47,653 bases of DNA, from positions 1 to 47,653 of the forward strand of contig JAGZSY010000040.1 in assembly GCA_018380885.1 (NCBI GenBank). The letters are read 5' to 3'. Numbering within the stretch: the first letter of the stretch is position 1; each line of letters starts with the position of its first letter. The notes below the pieces were generated by a model. That model saw only the letters and a list, made by a program, of their open reading frames with translations, made no database searches and was not told where the DNA came from. Below, piece after piece: positions 789 through 11,473 of this stretch. This DNA comes from Enterocloster asparagiformis (lineage in GTDB: Bacteria; Bacillota; Clostridia; Lachnospirales; Lachnospiraceae). The translations under genes and the position numbers were made by a program.

Positions 789-1646
789 ATGAATACGAAT
801 AAAGTTAGAATAAGATTGGAAGAATTGAAGGAGTTATACGATATTGGGAAGAAAGTTAGTTTGATTACTGAGAATAGAAGGGCGACAACATTAAGATCAG
901 CAGAAGCTGAAAAAATAGTGGAAAAAGTCTTGTTACACTGCAATAGTATAATTGAATTATTTTGCATAGGTCTAACGGATTATACAGAATTAGATTTTGC
1001 GTTAATTGCTTCGGCAGCAAGAAATATAATGGATTGCGGGAATGTATATTTTTATATTTCGGAAAGAGGTATTTCTGAAGAAGAGGTGAATTTCAGATAT
1101 AATTTACAACTCTTGAATTATGATAAAAACATTAAAGATATTTTTCGAAAATTTGGTTTTCCTATGGATAGTTTTAAGATGAGGCTTAATTATTTTAGCT
1201 TTGTTGTAAAAGAGATCAAGGACAGTAGTATTTATCTAAATGCTAGCAATAATGAAAAAAGTATGATACTTTCAGGAAAACAATTTTTTAAAAGGAAAAG
1301 AGTTGATATTTTTAGTCAAGATTTAGAATCAGCCATTTTTAACATGCTATCTAATAGCGTACATAGTTTTTATATTGGCCTAAGTAATAATTCGATAAAA
1401 ACTCCCGGTGTATTTGCAAGTTTTATCGACCCTTTAATGCTATGTATTGTCTCTATAGAAACTACGCTAATATATACTGCTAACATTTTAAATGATTATT
1501 TATTATTGAGAAGACAGTTAAGCAAAAAAGTGACAAAAGAAGAAAGGGATAAGATTAAGAGGTTGAGGAGCATAGAATATCTGATTGATTATTTGGATAT
1601 TCAAAAAAATGAATTTGATAAAGATATATTTAATACAGGGTTTTAG
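789..1646 (+). CDS. Hypothetical AT-rich protein, 285 residues
   Basis: I do not recognise this protein. It starts at ATG 789 (MNTNKVRIRL) about five bases after AAGAAAAGG, a weak ribosome binding site. The first ~50 residues are charged and probably helical. A hydrophobic stretch lies near residues 212-240 (SFIDPLMLCIVSIETTLIYTA), which could be a membrane helix or a buried helix, and the tail is strongly charged. Low GC and isolation between remnants suggest recent acquisition. A distant relation to the DUF5677-like all-helical family is possible but not shown. Cargo of a mobile element is the best contextual guess. Confidence 0.55.
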   Translation: MNTNKVRIRLEELKELYDIGKKVSLITENRRATTLRSAEAEKIVEKVLLHCNSIIELFCIGLTDYTELDFALIASAARNIMDCGNVYFYISERGISEEEVNFRYNLQLLNYDKNIKDIFRKFGFPMDSFKMRLNYFSFVVKEIKDSSIYLNASNNEKSMILSGKQFFKRKRVDIFSQDLESAIFNMLSNSVHSFYIGLSNNSIKTPGVFASFIDPLMLCIVSIETTLIYTANILNDYLLLRRQLSKKVTKEERDKIKRLRSIEYLIDYLDIQKNEFDKDIFNTGF

Positions 1647-4006: not shown

Positions 4007-5230
4007 TTACGCCCCTCTTTCATTCATTTGGCTTTCGGCAATGGCTCGGTACACCCCGCAGGTTTGTAAAAGCATATCATGGGTGCCAATCCCCACCAGA
4101 CGTCCCTTATCCAATACTAAAATCTGGTCGGCGTCCATAATGCTGCTGACGCGCTGGGCAATCACGAGCTTTGCGGGAGTCTTAACGCTTTGGCGGAGCG
4201 CTATACGCAGGGCGGCGTCGGTTTTCACATCCAGGGCTGAAAAACTGTCGTCAAACAGGAAAACATCTACTTTTTTGACCAGAGCGCGGGCAATGGAAAG
4301 CCGCTGCCGCTGACCGCCGGAAAAATTGGTTCCACCCTGCGCAACTGGGGAGTCTAAACCCTTGGGGAGTCCTTTGACAAAGGTTTCCGCCTGTGCGATG
4401 CGCAGCGCTGTCCAGAGCTCCTCGTCGGTAGCCTGCTCCCTTCCCATCCGCAGGTTATCTGCAATGGTGCCGCTGAACAGGAATGCCTTTTGCGGTACAC
4501 ATCCGATTCGCTCGCGCAGGGCCTGCTGGGAAAGAGCGCGTATATCCGTGCCGCCTATGGTGATACTGCCGTGCTGAATATCATGGACGCGCAGCAGTAA
4601 ATCTGCAAGGGTACTCTTGCCGGAGCCGGTACTGCCGATCACGGCGGTGGTCTGCCCTGGCAGCATTTTAAAGGAAAGATCATGGATGACCGGCTCCTCC
4701 GCACCCGGATAGGAAAACGTTACATGGTTGAAGGCAACGATCGCGTTTTCCGGCTGTTTCAATGTCCTCACGGGTACAACACCGTTGTCTTTGATCGCGG
4801 GCTCCGTATCGAGCACCTCCTGCAGGCGGCCCAGGCATGCAAGGGTTTTCGGCAGTGTGGTGAATACGGCTGCAGCTGAGATCAGATAGCCCATGGTCAT
4901 AGTGGTGTATTCAATCACGGCGGTAATCTGCCCTACCGCCATCGTACCCTTCAGGGAAAAGGCGCCGCCCAAACCGAGGATCACAAGCATCACAGCCCCC
5001 ATCGCAAGCCAGACCAAAGGGGTCGCTACGGCAAAGAGCCGGTTTAGACGTATCATGTTTTCAGCGTAGTGTTCATAGGCTTTGCCGGAGCGGTGTTCCT
5101 CGTAGACTTCGTTGCCAAAGGCCCGAATGACCCGGACGCCGGTAATAGATTCCCGAACCACCTTGTTGATGTGGTCAAGCCGCCTTTGGATGCTGCGGGA
5201 GAGCGAGTTGGATTTTTTAAGAAGGAACAC
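4007..5230 (-). pseudogene. ABC exporter half-transporter, N-terminally truncated
   Basis: The open frame (GTG at 5230) encodes 407 residues, whereas family members are about 570-600. The sequence begins in the middle of the membrane domain, just before the conserved RESITGVRVIRAFG segment, so the first three or so membrane helices are missing. The reading frame extends upstream only to about 5255 (HSLLASVFLLKK) before an in-frame TAA. The ATPase domain is intact: Walker A GSTGSGKS (199-206), signature FSGGQ (303-307), Walker B FLFDD (324-328) with Asp instead of the catalytic Glu, and Gln359 replacing the H-loop His. These are marks of the degenerate site in a heterodimer with the downstream gene. 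The 5' break looks like a deletion or recombination junction. A short functional product is unlikely. Confidence 0.8.
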
Positions 5231-5405
5231 AGAGGCCAGGAGCGAGTGACAATTCGTATGATTTTAAAGACGATTCTTTAAGTCCGGTAATAAGCCCGCA
5301 CAAACAATTTTTAATTTCTGTGGCGCAGGATTAGGTGACTCATTTAGTTGCCGAGAGCGATGAGGGCATGACGAAGAATTGCGGTGATATCATCATGAAG
5401 CATGA

Positions 5406-6118
5406 AGCTTTTTTAATAATTTCGCAGGAATTCAGAAGGTCGTTTTGATTGGCCATTCCCTGTCGCCTGTTGACTGGGATTACTTCGCCGAGGTTGCTTC
5501 ACGAGTGGCCGGTTCGAAAGAAGTTCAATGGTTTTTTGGGTGCCATGGACTGCGTGATCTGGAAAATTTGCAGACTTTGCTTGAAAAACTTGATATTGCG
5601 CGTTCATCTGTGTTTGTTTTTCGGGCAGATGATATTACTGAAACACCAATAAAAAATGTATCTGATATACCTGTGCTTCAGAAGGAGGAAAACGGAAAAC
5701 ACGCAGCAGATTGTCAGCCGATGGCCAGTAGATCTCAGAAATCACAGACCGATCGTTTAAGATACTCAATCAGAAAAACGGAGAATTGGTTTATGAAGTA
5801 ATGGTTTCTTCTCCGATCAGCGACGCCTTTTTCACACCATTCGGTGAATACATAATCGCAATCATCCGTGGTATTGATCCCGGAATCTTACTTTTTGGCG
5901 TTAAAGATAACCGATGGTGTTTTATTGGCGAGCTCGAAAGCATGCGGCACCAAAGTCTTATAAATTTCAGATTACGTCATGCTTTTTTGACTCGTCAGTC
6001 AATTATATTTGTCTATAATAACCGTGTTCGGATATATGATCTCCAGGATGGAAGCCTCACTTCCAATAGAAGCGTGCAAGGCGCCAGTAAAAGAGGGGTA
6101 ATAAATAACGGCAAATAG
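5406..6118 (+). pseudogene. Decayed AbiH-like / beta-propeller-like protein fragment
   Basis: From ~5421 one frame reads IQKVVLIGHSLSPVDWDYF followed by WFFGCHGLRDLENL. A GHS..D motif in the last part of the protein is typical of AbiH-like abortive infection proteins. The frame is then lost. Around 5717-5785 another frame reads LSADGQ, a TAG stop, then ISEITDRSFKILNQKNGELVYEV, which continues in the open frame to 6118. The tail has repeated strand-rich units (FGEYIIAII, RVRIYDLQDGS) like WD40 propeller blades. At least one frameshift and one nonsense codon separate the parts, and the N-terminus is absent. Whether the two halves were one protein is inferred from collinearity. The first-half family call is moderate. 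Confidence 0.6.
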
Positions 6119-6178
6119 AAATGAGAGGTCATTTAAGTGCTGTTTGTCGTAAAAAACGGGATATTGGCAATCTAAAAT

Positions 6179-6207
6179 TTGGAATATTTGGAAATCTGTG
6201 ATATTAT
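6179..6207 (+). promoter_or_regulatory. Candidate promoter for the HNH-NUDIX-SWIM-MBL cassette
   Basis: TTGGAA (6179-6184) and TATTAT (6202-6207) are separated by 17 bases, a good match to a housekeeping promoter. It would leave a leader of about 180 bases before the HNH gene, which contains two copies of ATATGATA (near 6279 and 6297). No competing promoter is stronger nearby. Confidence 0.4.
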
Positions 6208-6394
6208 GTCTAATAGTGACGGATGTAATTGATACTTGAACAAAATTTTGTAAAAATGTGATAAATCGCACGAGCGGGATATGATATCGATTCAAATATG
6301 ATACATTAGATAATAAAAATACATTGGCGGGAGGCTCTCGAACAGCCGTGTTAGAGTATGATAATACGTAAATTGCAGTAAGTCTGGAGGAAAA

Positions 6395-7288
6395 ATGAAA
6401 TTTAATCCCAAAATTAACATAGGAGATAACCTGACAAATGATGAGTTGCACCGCCTATTTAAATGCGGAAATATGGGCGGTATGCGGCGTTCAAAGAAAA
6501 CAGGTACATTGGTTATTATTTCCGATCACACAAAGGGCTTTTATGATGATGTATGGAAAGACGGAATTCTGTATTATACTGGAATGGGAAAAAGTGGTGA
6601 TCAGGTTTTGGAGGGGAACCAGAACAAAACCCTTTATTATGCAGAAACCAATGGTATAGAAGTCCATTTATTTGAAGTATTAGAGAAATCTGTCTATACA
6701 TATAAAGGAATTGTCAAACTTGCAGCGCAACCATATCAAGTAGCTCAGAGAGCGATTGACGGAAAAATGAGGAGTGTTTGGATATTCCCGGTGAAGCCTG
6801 TTTTAAATACAGAGGATGCTGCATTGGAGGCATTAGAGAGAGAAGTTGTAACGCTTCCCAATACAGAGTTGAATAGAAGGCTGAAGGCGAATCGCAAAAA
6901 TAGAGAGCCAAAGACAGTAGAGACGACGGTGTATTATAGGGATCCATACTTAAAGGAGCTGGTAAAGCGTATTGCGAATGGGAAATGTCAATATTGTGGA
7001 GAAGCGGCCCCGTTTATTGACAAGAATGGGGAGCCATATTTGGAGGAGCATCATGTCAAATGGCTTTCAAAAGGAGGAAGTGATACAATAGACAATGTGG
7101 TTGCAATCTGTCCAAATTGCCATTCAAAAGCCCATGTATTAGATGATGAGATCACGAAAATTACGCTGGTAAATGTAGCCAAGCATAATGAGAAGCGGTG
7201 GAAGCGCTTGTTAGCCTATGAGAAGAAAATAGATCAAGGTGTTTGGGAAACACAAAAAGCAAAGAAGGAAAACGATGAACACAATTAA
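6395..7288 (+). CDS. HNH endonuclease with N-terminal SRA-like (ScoMcrA-type) domain; probable modification-dependent restriction enzyme
   Basis: A 297-residue protein starting after GGAGG at the proper distance. Residues ~5-135 resemble the SRA/YDG-like domain of ScoMcrA-type enzymes: IGDNLTNDELHRLFKCGNMGGMR, then a long strand-rich part with GILYYTGMGKSGDQ. Such domains read modified bases. Residues ~195-250 form a zinc-type HNH domain: CQYC (198-201), the catalytic EHH (218-220), and CPNCHSKAH (239-247). The combination is that of type IV restriction, cutting DNA that carries foreign base modifications. The gene overlaps the NUDIX gene by 14 bases and heads a four-gene run. Phosphorothioate versus methyl/hydroxymethyl specificity cannot be told from sequence alone. 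Confidence 0.85.
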   Translation: MKFNPKINIGDNLTNDELHRLFKCGNMGGMRRSKKTGTLVIISDHTKGFYDDVWKDGILYYTGMGKSGDQVLEGNQNKTLYYAETNGIEVHLFEVLEKSVYTYKGIVKLAAQPYQVAQRAIDGKMRSVWIFPVKPVLNTEDAALEALEREVVTLPNTELNRRLKANRKNREPKTVETTVYYRDPYLKELVKRIANGKCQYCGEAAPFIDKNGEPYLEEHHVKWLSKGGSDTIDNVVAICPNCHSKAHVLDDEITKITLVNVAKHNEKRWKRLLAYEKKIDQGVWETQKAKKENDEHN

Positions 7289-7661
7289 CGTAGTGGCTGC
7301 GGTCATAAAACATAAGGGAAAAATATTTGCGACACAGCGCGGATACGGCGAGTTTAAAGACGGCTGGGAATTTCCGGGTGGTAAAATAGAACCAGGCGAA
7401 ACGCCGGAGGAAGCGCTGGAACGTGAAATAAAGGAGGAGCTAAATACTGAGATCGAGGTTCTCGATCTGATCGATGTCGTAGAATATGATTATCCCGCGT
7501 TTCATTTGAGGATGAGCTGCTATTGGTGTGGCATTATTTGCGGGAATTTCGAACTGTTGGAGCACAAGGCTTCAAGGTGGCTGAGCCGCGATGAACTCTA
7601 TACGGTTCCATGGCTGCCTGCGGATACGCAATTATTGGATAAGATAGAAAAAGAGATGTAA
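7275..7661 (+). CDS. NUDIX hydrolase (MutT-like)
   Basis: I choose ATG 7275 (MNTINVVAAV), preceded by AAGAAGGAAAAC, over an upstream TTG; it gives 128 residues, the usual MutT length. The NUDIX box is at ~37-59: GGKIEPGETPEEALEREIKEEL, with the metal-binding REIKEE core. The family hydrolyses nucleoside diphosphates linked to another group, and close relatives clean oxidised (deoxy)nucleotides. WLPADTQLL near the C-terminus is typical of MutT/CtfA-like members. The overlap with the HNH gene implies translational coupling. In a defence setting it might alter nucleotide pools or remove a signalling nucleotide; that part is inference. Confidence 0.88.
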   Translation: MNTINVVAAVIKHKGKIFATQRGYGEFKDGWEFPGGKIEPGETPEEALEREIKEELNTEIEVLDLIDVVEYDYPAFHLRMSCYWCGIICGNFELLEHKASRWLSRDELYTVPWLPADTQLLDKIEKEM

Positions 7662-7696
7662 ACAAAAGATAATAAAAATGGGAAAGGACAATACGT

Positions 7697-8134
7697 ATGG
7701 GACTAATTGAACTTGCCAGCGGTAATTCGGTGTGGCGCGGTATAGATTATTATCATGATAAAAAGGTAGTCTCATGGGAAAAGGCTGGCCCGGATTCCTA
7801 TAAAGGTATTGTATCAGGTAGTGGCGACAATCGTTATACCGTTTATATTGATAAGCAGCATCCGAGAAAGTCAACCTGCAACTGCCCGTTTGCCCAGGGC
7901 AGGCGCGTAATTTGCAAGCATATGTTGGCCCTGCTATTCACTGCGGAGCCGGACGTTGCCGATCAATTCCTTAGGGAAGTGGAGGAGTATGAAGCAGAGA
8001 ACGAGGAGAGGGAACGACAACACTATGAAGAGTTGGAGCGTTATGTAAAAAGTCTTTCAAAGTCACAACTACAGGAGCAGCTATTAAATGCACTTTTAGA
8101 ATTGGAAGAACGACAGCATTACGACCTATTTTGA
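7697..8134 (+). CDS. Small SWIM zinc-finger protein
   Basis: A 145-residue protein, ATG after GGAAAGGACAATACGT. The SWIM signature CxCxnCxH is seen as CNCPF...VICKHMLAL at residues ~60-78. SWIM domains bind zinc and mediate DNA or protein contacts; small single-domain versions occur beside helicases and in mobile or defence loci. The segment before the finger (SVWRGIDYYHDKKV...YTVYID) is the usual strand-rich lead-in. The C-terminal ~60 residues are highly charged and probably a coiled coil (VEEYEAENEERERQHYEELERY). No catalytic site is present, so it is likely an adaptor for the neighbouring nuclease or MBL protein. Confidence 0.85.
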   Translation: MGLIELASGNSVWRGIDYYHDKKVVSWEKAGPDSYKGIVSGSGDNRYTVYIDKQHPRKSTCNCPFAQGRRVICKHMLALLFTAEPDVADQFLREVEEYEAENEERERQHYEELERYVKSLSKSQLQEQLLNALLELEERQHYDLF

Positions 8135-8191
8135 AAATCATGATCACATATGAGGATATGAGTTAGGAGGAAACCACAGGGGGGATCACAA

Positions 8192-9574
8192 ATGGATACA
8201 GTAAAATTAAAAAAAGTGCAATGCCAATCGTCTGGGTACTTATATAACCTTTTGTGCCCATATCCATTTGCGGCATCTAAAAATATGAATCATGTTTATG
8301 CAAAAGTCATTAGTATTGACCGGATATGGAGGGAAGGGCAAAGGGTTTTAAAAGAGAGCAAGTATGGCATACATATATCCTTGATGAATAACTATATGGT
8401 CGAGGCGGACTATGAATATTTTACATCAGGGAATCAGTCCGATAGACCGATTAATATGGAATTAATTAAAAATTATAAACCGTATTATTATGAATTTTAT
8501 GCTGAAATTAGTGGTAAAGAACGCAGCCATATCATAGAGGCCACAAAGCTTCAGTGGTTTAATGCCGAGTTGATTGACAAAGACATTGTAAGCGATAATC
8601 GTCATATCATCTATGGTGTAGTCGAATTCAGTGCAAGTCCATTTGTTGAAAAAGGAATGGCGTTGGCATACAATGCGGATGAGGTTGAGGCCGAGATTCT
8701 AAAAAAATTGGATGATAATGTTTATACGTTTCGAAATTCTATTGATACTTGTCCAACCAGGTATAAAATCTTTGAGAATGCAATGAATGAAGCATTTGAT
8801 TATTGCAAAAAAGTAAAGATACGCGTCTATAATGTTGGGCAGGCAAATTGTGTCTATTTATTTTCACCGATTAAGAAAAATAGAGTGCTTTTTGATATTG
8901 GAATACCGAGAGAGCCGGAATTAATGTCCTATGACAGAAAAAAGAAAGAAGTCAAAAAATCACTGGCTTCGATCAAGATGCTTGTTCCGGGTTTGGTAAT
9001 CTTGTCCCATTGGCATTTAGATCATATAAAAGGCGCTTTCTTGCTGAATGGTGCATTTAATCAATACTGGATCGCCCCCAGTATCAAAACCGGTATAGCC
9101 CAAATTCCCCAATCAATTAAGCGGGTTGCGAGATATTTGGATTTTAATAATAAGCTTCTGCATATTTCTGCTGACAAAAATGGCACGCTGGTTTGGAGTA
9201 ACGATAAGCTTAGGTTGTGGAAGGGGAAGGGTAAATCGAACATAGATAACGGGGGAATCATTCTGGAAATTGCCGGTAATGAGGGGACGGCGATTTTACC
9301 AGGAGACTGCCGGTATTTTTTTTGGCCGGATCATTTGAATTTAGATCATAATAAATACCTTGTTGTGCCGCATCACGGTTCTAAACTTGACAATTACTGT
9401 AAATTAACCAAGACCGGAATCTGTAACGCCCATGCATATATTTCTGTTGGAGAGGATGGCAGAAGGATTCATAAATGGGAGCATCCGAGCGATGAACATA
9501 TCTATAAATTACAAAATTGTGGTTATTCGGTGGAAACAACATTAATGAAAGGAAATCGAGATTTTACTGTATAA
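8192..9574 (+). CDS. MBL-fold metallohydrolase (ComEC-like) with unassigned N-terminal domain
   Basis: A 460-residue protein, ATG 8192 after AGGAGGAAACC and GGGGG. Residues ~207-460 are a metallo-beta-lactamase fold of the ComEC/Rec2 type: NVGQANC (214-220, the counterpart of VGQGD), LFDIG (233-237), the metal site SHWHLDH (272-278), GD (371-372), PHHGS (393-397) and HP (431-432). All main metal ligands appear present, so phosphodiesterase or nuclease activity is plausible. Residues 1-~200 match nothing I recognise; they are mixed alpha/beta with many aromatic residues and end in CPTRYKIFENAMNEAF. There is no signal peptide or membrane helix, so unlike ComEC it is cytoplasmic. It is the last gene of the cassette. 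Confidence 0.85.
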   Translation: MDTVKLKKVQCQSSGYLYNLLCPYPFAASKNMNHVYAKVISIDRIWREGQRVLKESKYGIHISLMNNYMVEADYEYFTSGNQSDRPINMELIKNYKPYYYEFYAEISGKERSHIIEATKLQWFNAELIDKDIVSDNRHIIYGVVEFSASPFVEKGMALAYNADEVEAEILKKLDDNVYTFRNSIDTCPTRYKIFENAMNEAFDYCKKVKIRVYNVGQANCVYLFSPIKKNRVLFDIGIPREPELMSYDRKKKEVKKSLASIKMLVPGLVILSHWHLDHIKGAFLLNGAFNQYWIAPSIKTGIAQIPQSIKRVARYLDFNNKLLHISADKNGTLVWSNDKLRLWKGKGKSNIDNGGIILEIAGNEGTAILPGDCRYFFWPDHLNLDHNKYLVVPHHGSKLDNYCKLTKTGICNAHAYISVGEDGRRIHKWEHPSDEHIYKLQNCGYSVETTLMKGNRDFTV

Positions 9575-9626
9575 TAATATGGCGGAGGATTGTATACCAT
9601 TGATTAATATGATTCATGGCAGTATA

Positions 9627-9658
9627 TTGAAAGGGTTTGGTAAAATGGTAATACCCTT
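9627..9658 (+). promoter_or_regulatory. Promoter with an embedded inverted repeat, upstream of the ABC exporter
   Basis: TTGAAA (9627-9632) and TAATAC (9649-9654) are spaced by 16 bases. AAGGGT (9631-9636) and ACCCTT (9653-9658) form an inverted repeat that brackets the spacer and overlaps both promoter elements. This arrangement suits a repressor or a MerR-like activator. The exporter start codon lies about 25 bases downstream, so the leader is very short. Confidence 0.5.
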
Positions 9659-9682
9659 CTATCCGATTTGAAAGGCATAAAT

Positions 9683-11473
9683 ATGGAAATAAATGTAAAA
9701 TCAAAGCACAGAAAGCTCTACCTAATCTTTAGATACCTCCAGGGCTCTAAGATTTATTTTGCGGCGGCTGTCGCCGCTTCATTGATCTCAACCATATTAA
9801 ACGCCCTGACCCCGCAGATTTTCCGGTTCAGCATCGACGAGGTGCTGGGCGGAAACAGCGGGGGGCAGGGAAGCTACCTGACCAGCCATCTCTGGAGCTT
9901 GGCGCTGCTGATTGTGGCGGTGGCGGTAGCTTCGGGGATTTTTACCTATGTCAGCCGCACCAACACGGCCAAGGCAGGGGAGAATTTTGCTAAAAACTTA
10001 AGAGACGCCCTGTTTATCCATGTGCAGAAGCTTCCGATGCGGTGGCACGACCGGAACCAGACAGGGGATATTATCCAGAGGTGCACCTCGGATGTGGAGG
10101 TGATACGGGGATTTGTGGTCACGCAGCTCCTGGAGGTGTTCCGCACGGCGTTTCTTGTGATTACGTCGTTTGTCATGATGTTTTCCATGAACGTGAAGCT
10201 CTCCTGCATCGTTCTCCTGTTCGTACCGGTTGTGGTTGTGTACTCAACTGTGTTCTACCGATTGATCGCAAAACGGTTCACCACCGCGGATGAAGCGGAG
10301 GGGGAGCTCTCCACGGTTGTGCAGGAAAATGCCACGGGCGTGCGGGTGGTGCGCGCCTTCGGCCGCGAGCAATTTGAGATGGAGCGCTTTGACAAGAAGA
10401 ATGACGCCTTCGCGAAGCTGTGGATTCGGCTGGGGACCTTATCGGGGCTGTACTGGGGGATCGGGGACCTGATCACGGGGCTGCAGGTGGTTGCGGTGAT
10501 CATTTTCGGCGTGCTGGAAGCGGTGAACGGCGCTATCTCAGTCGGCGAGTTTATCGCGTTTGCGGCGTACAATTCAACGCTGGTGTGGCCGATCCGCGGC
10601 CTTGGGCGCATTCTCTCGGACATGAGCAAGGCCGGCGTTTCCTTCGAGCGCGTGGATTATATTATTCGCTCCCAGGAGGAAGCGTACGGGAGGGCGCGTG
10701 AAAAATCCGGCGGATCGTATGATATTTCTTTTCAGCACGTGACCTTTGGATATGAGACGGGAAAAGAGGTGCTTCAGAATATTTCCTTCACAATCGGGGA
10801 GGGGAAAACCTTTGGCATTTTGGGCGGTACGGGAAGCGGAAAGTCCACCATCGTTCAACTTCTCTCCAGGCTGTATGAGCTGGGCGACGGCGGGGGCAGT
10901 ATCTGCATCGGCGGCAGGGAAATCAAAGATATCCCCATTGAGGAGCTCAGGAGAAATATCGGGGTGGTATTGCAGGAGCCGTTTTTGTACTCCAGGACTA
11001 TCCGGGAAAATATCGCGGCTTCCGTGCCGGAGGCGTCCATGGAGGAGATTCGGCACGCCGCGCAGATCGCGTGCATCGACGATGCCATTATGAGCTTTCC
11101 GGACGGCTATGAGACGCTTGTGGGGGAGCGGGGCGTGACTTTGTCGGGTGGACAGAAGCAGCGGATTGCCATTGCCAGGATGCTGCTTGAGAAGGCGCCG
11201 ATCATGGTGTTTGACGATTCCTTGTCAGCTGTGGATTCCCAGACGGATTACCGCATCCGCTGCGCGCTGAAGGAGCAGATGAAGGAGGCTACGGTTATCC
11301 TCATCTCCCACAGAGTGACCTCCCTCATGAGCGCGGATGAGATCATGGTGCTGAACCAGGGCAGAATAGAGGAGCGCGGCACTCACCGGGAGCTGATACA
11401 GAGAAATGGTATTTACCGCAGGATTTATGACATACAGATGAGCCGTGACGACAGAGAGAAGATGGAGGGATGA
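9683..11473 (+). CDS. ABC exporter half-transporter A (heterodimeric multidrug type)
   Basis: I start at ATG 9683 (MEINVKSKHR) behind GAAAGG rather than the upstream TTG, giving 596 residues. Six hydrophobic helices lie in residues ~20-320, with the coupling-helix landmarks GDIIQRCTSDV and ENATGVRVVRAFG. The ATPase has Walker A GGTGSGKS (381-388), intact signature LSGGQ (487-491), Walker B MVFDD (508-512) with Asp in place of the catalytic Glu, and the H-loop His (ISHR). An Asp here marks the non-hydrolysing site of a heterodimer. The partner begins three bases after the stop. The family (BmrCD/LmrCD-like) exports drugs and amphiphiles; the actual substrate is unknown. Confidence 0.92.
   Translation: MEINVKSKHRKLYLIFRYLQGSKIYFAAAVAASLISTILNALTPQIFRFSIDEVLGGNSGGQGSYLTSHLWSLALLIVAVAVASGIFTYVSRTNTAKAGENFAKNLRDALFIHVQKLPMRWHDRNQTGDIIQRCTSDVEVIRGFVVTQLLEVFRTAFLVITSFVMMFSMNVKLSCIVLLFVPVVVVYSTVFYRLIAKRFTTADEAEGELSTVVQENATGVRVVRAFGREQFEMERFDKKNDAFAKLWIRLGTLSGLYWGIGDLITGLQVVAVIIFGVLEAVNGAISVGEFIAFAAYNSTLVWPIRGLGRILSDMSKAGVSFERVDYIIRSQEEAYGRAREKSGGSYDISFQHVTFGYETGKEVLQNISFTIGEGKTFGILGGTGSGKSTIVQLLSRLYELGDGGGSICIGGREIKDIPIEELRRNIGVVLQEPFLYSRTIRENIAASVPEASMEEIRHAAQIACIDDAIMSFPDGYETLVGERGVTLSGGQKQRIAIARMLLEKAPIMVFDDSLSAVDSQTDYRIRCALKEQMKEATVILISHRVTSLMSADEIMVLNQGRIEERGTHRELIQRNGIYRRIYDIQMSRDDREKMEG

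Follow-up and report, generated by a model that had tools for sequence, protein, structure and literature searches.

Type IV restriction enzymes have no partner methyltransferase that marks self DNA. McrBC, a methyl-specific nuclease, is described as cleaving the chromosome and killing its host once the host genome becomes methylated (PMC2614495), and the type IV enzyme SauUSI is reported to cut DNA containing 5-methylcytosine (m5C) or 5-hydroxymethylcytosine (hm5C) (PMC3874153). A figure legend in PMC7641849 notes that homologues of SauUSI in Streptococcus have MutT homologues as neighbours, which it calls small DNA repair proteins, and adjacency of SauUSI and NUDIX genes is therefore not new; the legend itself proposes no role for these neighbours. 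Here we describe a comparable arrangement in Enterocloster asparagiformis contig JAGZSY010000040.1, of which the whole stretch analysed, positions 1 to 47,653, is referred to as the window. Within the set of four genes under study (6395..9574), an SRA-HNH nuclease gene (gene 1) is overlapped by a NUDIX hydrolase gene (gene 2), and we find that these two make up a genuine two-gene unit, predicted to act in type IV restriction, in which the NUDIX gene is optional and whose genomic coupling recurs across many loci. New here are the pairing with SRA-HNH enzymes, figures for how often the coupling occurs, its comparison with controls, and the idea that the NUDIX protein guards the nucleotide pool; a literature search made mostly without subscription papers found no description of an SRA-HNH and NUDIX unit. 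The features of the two genes are as follows.

6386-6390, + strand: GGAGG ribosome site of gene 1
6395..7288, + strand: gene 1, predicted SRA-HNH modification-dependent endonuclease (McrA/TagI/ScoMcrA-like), 297 aa (domain search, structure model)
6395..6814, + strand: SRA-like modified-base reader, approximately residues 1-140 of gene 1 (AlphaFold model and Foldseek)
6986..7135, + strand: HNH nuclease domain, residues 198-247 of gene 1 (Pfam and alignment)
7275..7661, + strand: gene 2, NUDIX hydrolase, NudG/MutT-like, 128 aa from an ATG inside gene 1 (domain search)
7380..7448, + strand: Nudix box, residues 36-58 of gene 2 (sequence and alignment), placed with what we take to be the Nudix box pattern
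7623..7625, + strand: Asp117 of gene 2, aligned with the NudG Asp and MutT Asn119 (alignment)

By fold and motifs, gene 1 is predicted to be a modification-dependent type IV nuclease, which bears out what the sequence-only reading had said of it. In Pfam the SRA part gives only a sub-threshold match to the AspBHI N-terminal family (E 0.005). The SRA-fold reader is present in an AlphaFold model for which an alignment of 42 sequences was used (mean predicted local distance difference test score, pLDDT, 90.3; predicted template modelling score, pTM, 0.52). Its best solved Foldseek matches are ScoMcrA, TagI and EcoKMcrA, and SRA-containing SUVH proteins of plants come next; the SRA part matches the SUVH5 SRA domain (3q0c) with a template modelling (TM) score by target of 0.69. 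The conserved His, Asn and Cys residues of the HNH region are intact, with C198, H219, H220, N234, C239, C242, H243 and H247 invariant in 42 aligned sequences, the window included, in an alignment from which L017 (in-frame stop) and L033 were left out. The PADLOC model mREase_IV (type IV methyl-directed) matches residues 164-261 (E 1e-22), and the NCBIfam model PT-DNA_restrict matches residues 173-245 only, with 27.9 bits against a cut-off of 180.

Relatives of gene 1 are encoded at 85 SRA loci, 78 from genomes and 7 from viral contigs; two of the viral-contig loci duplicate genome loci, leaving 83 distinct. In 35 of the 85 loci (34 of the 83 distinct) the SRA gene has a same-strand NUDIX gene no more than 700 bp away, and the 815 kb of flank farther out hold only four additional NUDIX matches. 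The binomial p for this proximity is 4.7e-28, with position as the sole variable and kinship ignored. The coupling is found at 20 of the 36 loci in which the match to gene 1 reaches into the HNH domain and at 15 of the 49 in which it ends before it, although the latter class includes some loci that are broken or cut by a contig end (e.g. L026). Of the 35 coupled NUDIX genes, 24 come after the SRA gene and 11 before it; the open reading frames (ORFs) overlap at several of these loci, and one gene 1 homologue of 428 aa, found in two contigs (P0086), carries SRA, HNH and NUDIX in a single chain. On three Priestia megaterium plasmids, one of which was examined, a protein annotated as a (deoxy)nucleoside triphosphate pyrophosphohydrolase or MutT overlaps the HNH match. 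The recurrent adjacency of NUDIX genes in related SRA loci supports the earlier suggestion that the nucleotide hydrolase belongs with the gene 1 nuclease. A phage search returned 12 records with partial matches only, none covering 80%.

Two further arrangements were seen among these loci. The same NUDIX gene often comes after SRA proteins of about 250 aa (L048:7001-7765 and similar ones among L037-L066), in which the match ends before the HNH domain. On Aerococcus plasmid pT4302 (L344:2498-3331), an SRA-HNH gene adjoins a dcm gene and a gene for a Sau3AI-family endonuclease, with no NUDIX gene in that stretch.

The same NUDIX subfamily also accompanies a second, unrelated kind of modified-DNA nuclease. 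We defined the subfamily as the 92 matches at E <=4.4e-31 in 200 Lachnospiraceae genomes, and fetched 68 of these with their surroundings; the first 28 comprised 18 top-ranked loci and 10 chosen for fusions or because their genomes were of interest, and the 40 that came after were taken roughly in list order. Controls were 20 hand-picked weaker matches from the same search (E 5e-10 to 1e-7). Many subfamily members adjoin the 3' end of a gene for a protein of roughly 1000 aa, and the one such protein scanned is composed of PLD, helicase and DUF3427 domains, the make-up of SauUSI, and matches PADLOC mREase_IV with E 1.4e-203. SauUSI-like (42) or SRA (3) genes lie within 1.5 kb of 45 of the 68 subfamily loci, compared with 0 of the 20 controls (p 3e-8). 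Approached from the nuclease side, DUF3427 gives 61 matches in 56 of the 200 genomes (counting as two a gene that is in pieces in G107), and a subfamily NUDIX gene lies downstream, on the same strand and within 1.6 kb, of 48 of the 61; 54 of the 56 genomes with DUF3427 carry the subfamily, as against 33 of the 144 others (Fisher p 3.4e-23, with kinship ignored). In samples from the phylum and from Bacilli, a NUDIX gene stands at the 3' side of 11 of 54 DUF3427 loci, and as eight of these are convergent and only three co-directional, the link between NUDIX and DUF3427 is not solely one of inherited operon order.

Several other neighbours of the subfamily are worth recording. Three of the 68 subfamily loci, and 0 of the 20 controls, have a C5-cytosine methyltransferase gene within 3 kb; one such gene is immediately 5' of the NUDIX gene (L255:7013-8401) and another, also on the 5' side, is one gene away (L192:6910-7869). 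At L201:8107-9669, L202:5078-6082, L217:8073-9086 and L220:7488-8492 the NUDIX domain is apparently fused to other domains, which, read by eye from the sequence, are peptidase-like, metallo-beta-lactamase (MBL)-like, S-adenosylmethionine (SAM)-methyltransferase-like and GNAT-like. A second HNH family (HNH_4) is present within 1.5 kb of the NUDIX gene at several loci (e.g. L189:9078-10190 and L183:2197-3300), some of which have no SauUSI-like or SRA gene.

The unit raises the question of what stops a type IV nuclease from cutting the DNA of its own cell when that cell salvages foreign nucleotides. A nuclease reading modified cytosine would pose the problem that McrBC poses to a methylated host if modified dCTP were incorporated. 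In the explanation that we propose, where the cleavage specificity, the NUDIX substrate and the purpose of self-protection are what we infer, the SRA domain of gene 1 would recognise incoming DNA by its modified cytosine (5-methyl- or 5-hydroxymethylcytosine), the HNH domain would cut that DNA, and the NUDIX protein would hydrolyse 5-methyl-dCTP or 5-hydroxymethyl-dCTP to the monophosphates. Modified cytosine from degraded foreign DNA or from outside uptake would thus be kept out of the host chromosome, which would be spared attack by the nuclease, and the same NUDIX subfamily would serve SauUSI-like nucleases in the same way. Such a pool-cleaning partner would solve the problem of self-cutting, and would explain why one NUDIX subfamily is found with nucleases that have little in common besides their target. 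That a NUDIX partner is common to unrelated modified-cytosine nucleases makes the question of self-protection directly testable, and the unit would be of greater interest if modified dCTP is indeed the NUDIX substrate.

The substrate is where this explanation meets its first competitor, namely that gene 2 is a general sanitation enzyme, a MutT-type hydrolase of 8-oxo-dGTP or damaged nucleotides, and thus a repair gene that travels with restriction genes and has no direct link to modified cytosine. The residue aligned with MutT Asn119, which we take to be an 8-oxoguanine contact, is Asp in gene 2, as in NudG, an enzyme reported to be a 5-methyl-dCTP pyrophosphatase. This NudG-like pocket Asp is present in every coupled or subfamily set (68/68, 21/21, 10/10 and 4/4; 103 records representing 101 distinct sequences), compared with 1 of the 20 controls; L055, L085, L066 and L027, which have an internal stop in the extended match, were left out of the alignment. 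This residue argues against sanitation, and so does the way in which the NUDIX gene recurs beside two unrelated modified-cytosine nucleases. Gene 2 scores alike, however, for the two families, with 81.8 bits for the NCBIfam MutT model TIGR00586 (cut-off 97.9) and 81.1 bits for the NudG-type model PRK10546 (cut-off 156), and E. coli MutT and NudG both match PADLOC PDC-S07. Among solved structures the nearest to gene 2 is 3gwy (a putative CTP pyrophosphohydrolase), the second is the MutT-named 5x1x, the fourth is again MutT-named, and the fifth is the CTP pyrophosphohydrolase 2rrk, listed as an E. coli 5-methyl-dCTP pyrophosphatase in PMC5389931. MutT itself is credited with weak activity on 5-methyl-dCTP (PMC3744803), and the term small DNA repair proteins in the PMC7641849 legend also accords with sanitation. 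Taken together, we regard a purely sanitary role as unlikely, and removal of modified cytosine nucleotides by the NUDIX partner as a good guess from the sequence comparisons. PDC-S07, tried as proof of a defence NUDIX, was dropped because E. coli MutT and NudG match it too.

In a tree of 71 sequences (126 thinned by 55), the SRA-coupled NUDIX genes are interleaved with mostly SauUSI-coupled subfamily rows, with few columns and bootstrap that is not settled; the labels denote the place of finding, and certain rows of the subfamily are partnered by SRA or other genes. Starred branches force at least seven changes of the SRA-downstream label and two of the SRA-upstream label. The tree supports interleaving only, and does not extend to a separate origin for NUDIX genes that lie ahead of an SRA gene.

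A second competitor assigns the NUDIX protein to offence, so that it would destroy the modified dCTP that a phage makes and the nuclease would cut phage DNA already modified. The same coupling data apply to this alternative, and an independent arm would also allow for the 23 of 68 subfamily loci that have neither nuclease within 1.5 kb. It can be argued against it that destroying the precursor reduces the very mark that the nuclease needs, and that it leaves unexplained the few C5-methyltransferase neighbours, as these enzymes act on DNA. We consider offence improbable, to much the same degree as sanitation.

Several observations weigh against the pool-guarding explanation, beginning with those same 23 loci, whose NUDIX genes have no SauUSI-like or SRA nuclease at hand. 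Outside the family the association is sparser, with NUDIX genes at only 4 of 26 DUF3427 loci in a sample of 199 genomes from the phylum, and at 7 of 30 in Bacilli (the 30 best of 82 matches). No C5-methyltransferase was found in the 85 SRA loci with two query enzymes. Among five plasmid regions fetched, a NUDIX gene is within 2.5 kb of the SRA-HNH gene in one and not in four, and at 16 of the 36 SRA-HNH loci the nearest 700 bp hold no NUDIX gene. For 12 of these 16 loci, in 11 genomes (L006, L013, L080 and L082 being left out), we searched the genomes for NUDIX relatives: two have one 1-2.7 kb away, and seven of the other nine have no clear relative in the whole genome (best E weaker than 1e-10), from which it follows that NUDIX is not obligatory for SRA-HNH enzymes. 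The remaining two have matches with E 2.5e-14 and with E 4e-19, the latter at a contig start in a genome where the SRA-HNH gene is also at a contig start. The NUDIX gene also accompanies SRA proteins that apparently lack a nuclease domain: L048, the sole protein scanned among those whose match ends before the HNH domain, shows no nuclease, its tail giving just a sub-threshold UvrD-tudor-like match, and an antidote to a nuclease therefore does not explain the NUDIX gene beside it. Finally, NudG Arg72 and Arg77, which we take to be substrate residues, are not conserved in gene 2 in the alignment, and since gene 2 misses the cut-offs of both the NudG and the MutT models, 8-oxo-dGTP is a possible substrate.

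Setting these points beside the coupling and the pocket Asp, we give about an even chance to the explanation that genes 1 and 2 are a type IV restriction unit whose NUDIX protein would clear modified cytosine nucleotides for self-protection. The wider proposition, that modification-dependent restriction is commonly paired with a NUDIX pool guard, as a rule for telling self from non-self at the level of deoxynucleoside triphosphates that would span SRA-HNH enzymes, SauUSI-like enzymes and SRA readers, is more tentative, and we think it somewhat likelier to fail than to hold.

The sequence-only reading had grouped genes 1 and 2 with the next two genes as a four-gene SRA-HNH, NUDIX, SWIM and MBL defence cassette. 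The two additional genes are as follows.

7697..8134, + strand: gene 3, SWIM zinc-finger protein, 145 aa, a neighbour outside the conserved unit
8192..9574, + strand: gene 4, soluble ComEC-like MBL protein, 460 aa, a neighbour outside the conserved unit

The ORF listing agrees that four intact genes lie on the same strand in this order, with a 14-base overlap of genes 1 and 2 followed by gaps of 35 and 57 bases; it also gives an earlier GTG start for gene 2 at 7239. HNH (PF01844, E 5e-12), NUDIX (4.5e-19) and SWIM (5.3e-9) all exceed their Pfam cut-offs, and Lactamase_B in gene 4 (E 1.4e-4, 22.3 bits) falls just below its cut-off of 22.7. When 5200-9800 was scanned with a consensus, a single terminator-like site was seen, inside the NUDIX gene, against 3.5 expected by chance, so co-transcription of the four genes is possible. 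Despite this tight, same-strand spacing with no terminator-like site between the genes, a four-gene cassette is very improbable and we rejected it on co-occurrence in these collections, as neither SWIM nor MBL was found in any of the 85 SRA loci, in any of the 68 subfamily NUDIX loci, or in any of 153 SRA or NUDIX locus records in all (with a few duplicates), and six SWIM and six MBL loci, searched by tblastn at E 1e-4, showed no match to the remaining three proteins of the set. The survey of co-conservation that the sequence-only reading had itself named as its test thus did not find the four genes together elsewhere, and we found no evidence at these loci for an MBL-mediated degradation arm or a SWIM arm. 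We conclude that the SWIM and MBL genes are unrelated island neighbours, and the four-gene reading is corrected to a two-gene unit followed by two unrelated genes.

The two neighbours differ in abundance. The short SWIM protein has 748 matches, and some match in 36 of 200 genomes of the family, six of which hold 41-72% identity over nearly the full length; at one SWIM locus (L206) a distant SauUSI-like stretch with 28% identity lies about 6.6 kb away. The MBL protein belongs to a rare family, with 70 matches in the protein collection and matches in 6 of the 200 genomes, one over most of its length; no relatives were found in viral contigs. It has HWHLDH at residues 273-278, and its AlphaFold model (mean pLDDT 83.7) is most similar to the ComEC beta-lactamase-like domain, in keeping with its earlier description as a soluble ComEC-like MBL. 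It is the MBL domain fold alone that matches, as the model of the full-length ComEC/Rec2 membrane protein scores 23.2 bits against a cut-off of 190. A match to LmuA, the Lamassu MBL effector, is confined to residues 207-283 (E 4.6e-5), and the partner genes that we presume to stand beside LmuA gave no match among the seven window proteins scanned.

The description of the surroundings as a decayed defence island was partly right, its basis being an AbiH C-terminal fragment and a shortened ABC exporter ORF. The AbiH match (5445-5801, + strand; PADLOC E 5.7e-4) is close to the shortened ABC gene (4007-5230, - strand), which lacks about 190 N-terminal residues in comparison with related ABC proteins in the window. 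An ORF of 285 aa at 789-1646 (+ strand) has no confident family and a weak CARF4 match (E 0.002).

Gene 1 is closest to a group of described HNH enzymes. It shares with TagI an SRA-like reader, an HNH nuclease and a length of about 300 aa (by Foldseek), and the HNH part of EcoKMcrA is its nearest solved sequence; it differs from both in that the nuclease gene in the window is overlapped by a NUDIX gene, and our literature search found no report of a NUDIX gene beside McrA or TagI. The phosphorothioate-dependent ScoMcrA is the best Foldseek match and spans the SRA and HNH parts together, but gene 1 has no separate sulfur-binding domain, begins with the SRA part at its N-terminus, and has 297 residues rather than 561. 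Gene 2 resembles E. coli NudG in its NUDIX fold and in the Asp at the MutT Asn119 position, whereas no nuclease gene lies near NudG in an 8-kb stretch of E. coli K-12, and NudG has the Arg72 and Arg77 that gene 2 lacks and belongs to a family whose NCBIfam cut-off gene 2 does not reach. SauUSI with its adjacent MutT homologue is an ATP-dependent PLD-helicase-DUF3427 protein, whereas the window enzyme is an HNH nuclease with no helicase, and the two arrangements are alike in placing the same NUDIX subfamily beside a modified-cytosine nuclease.

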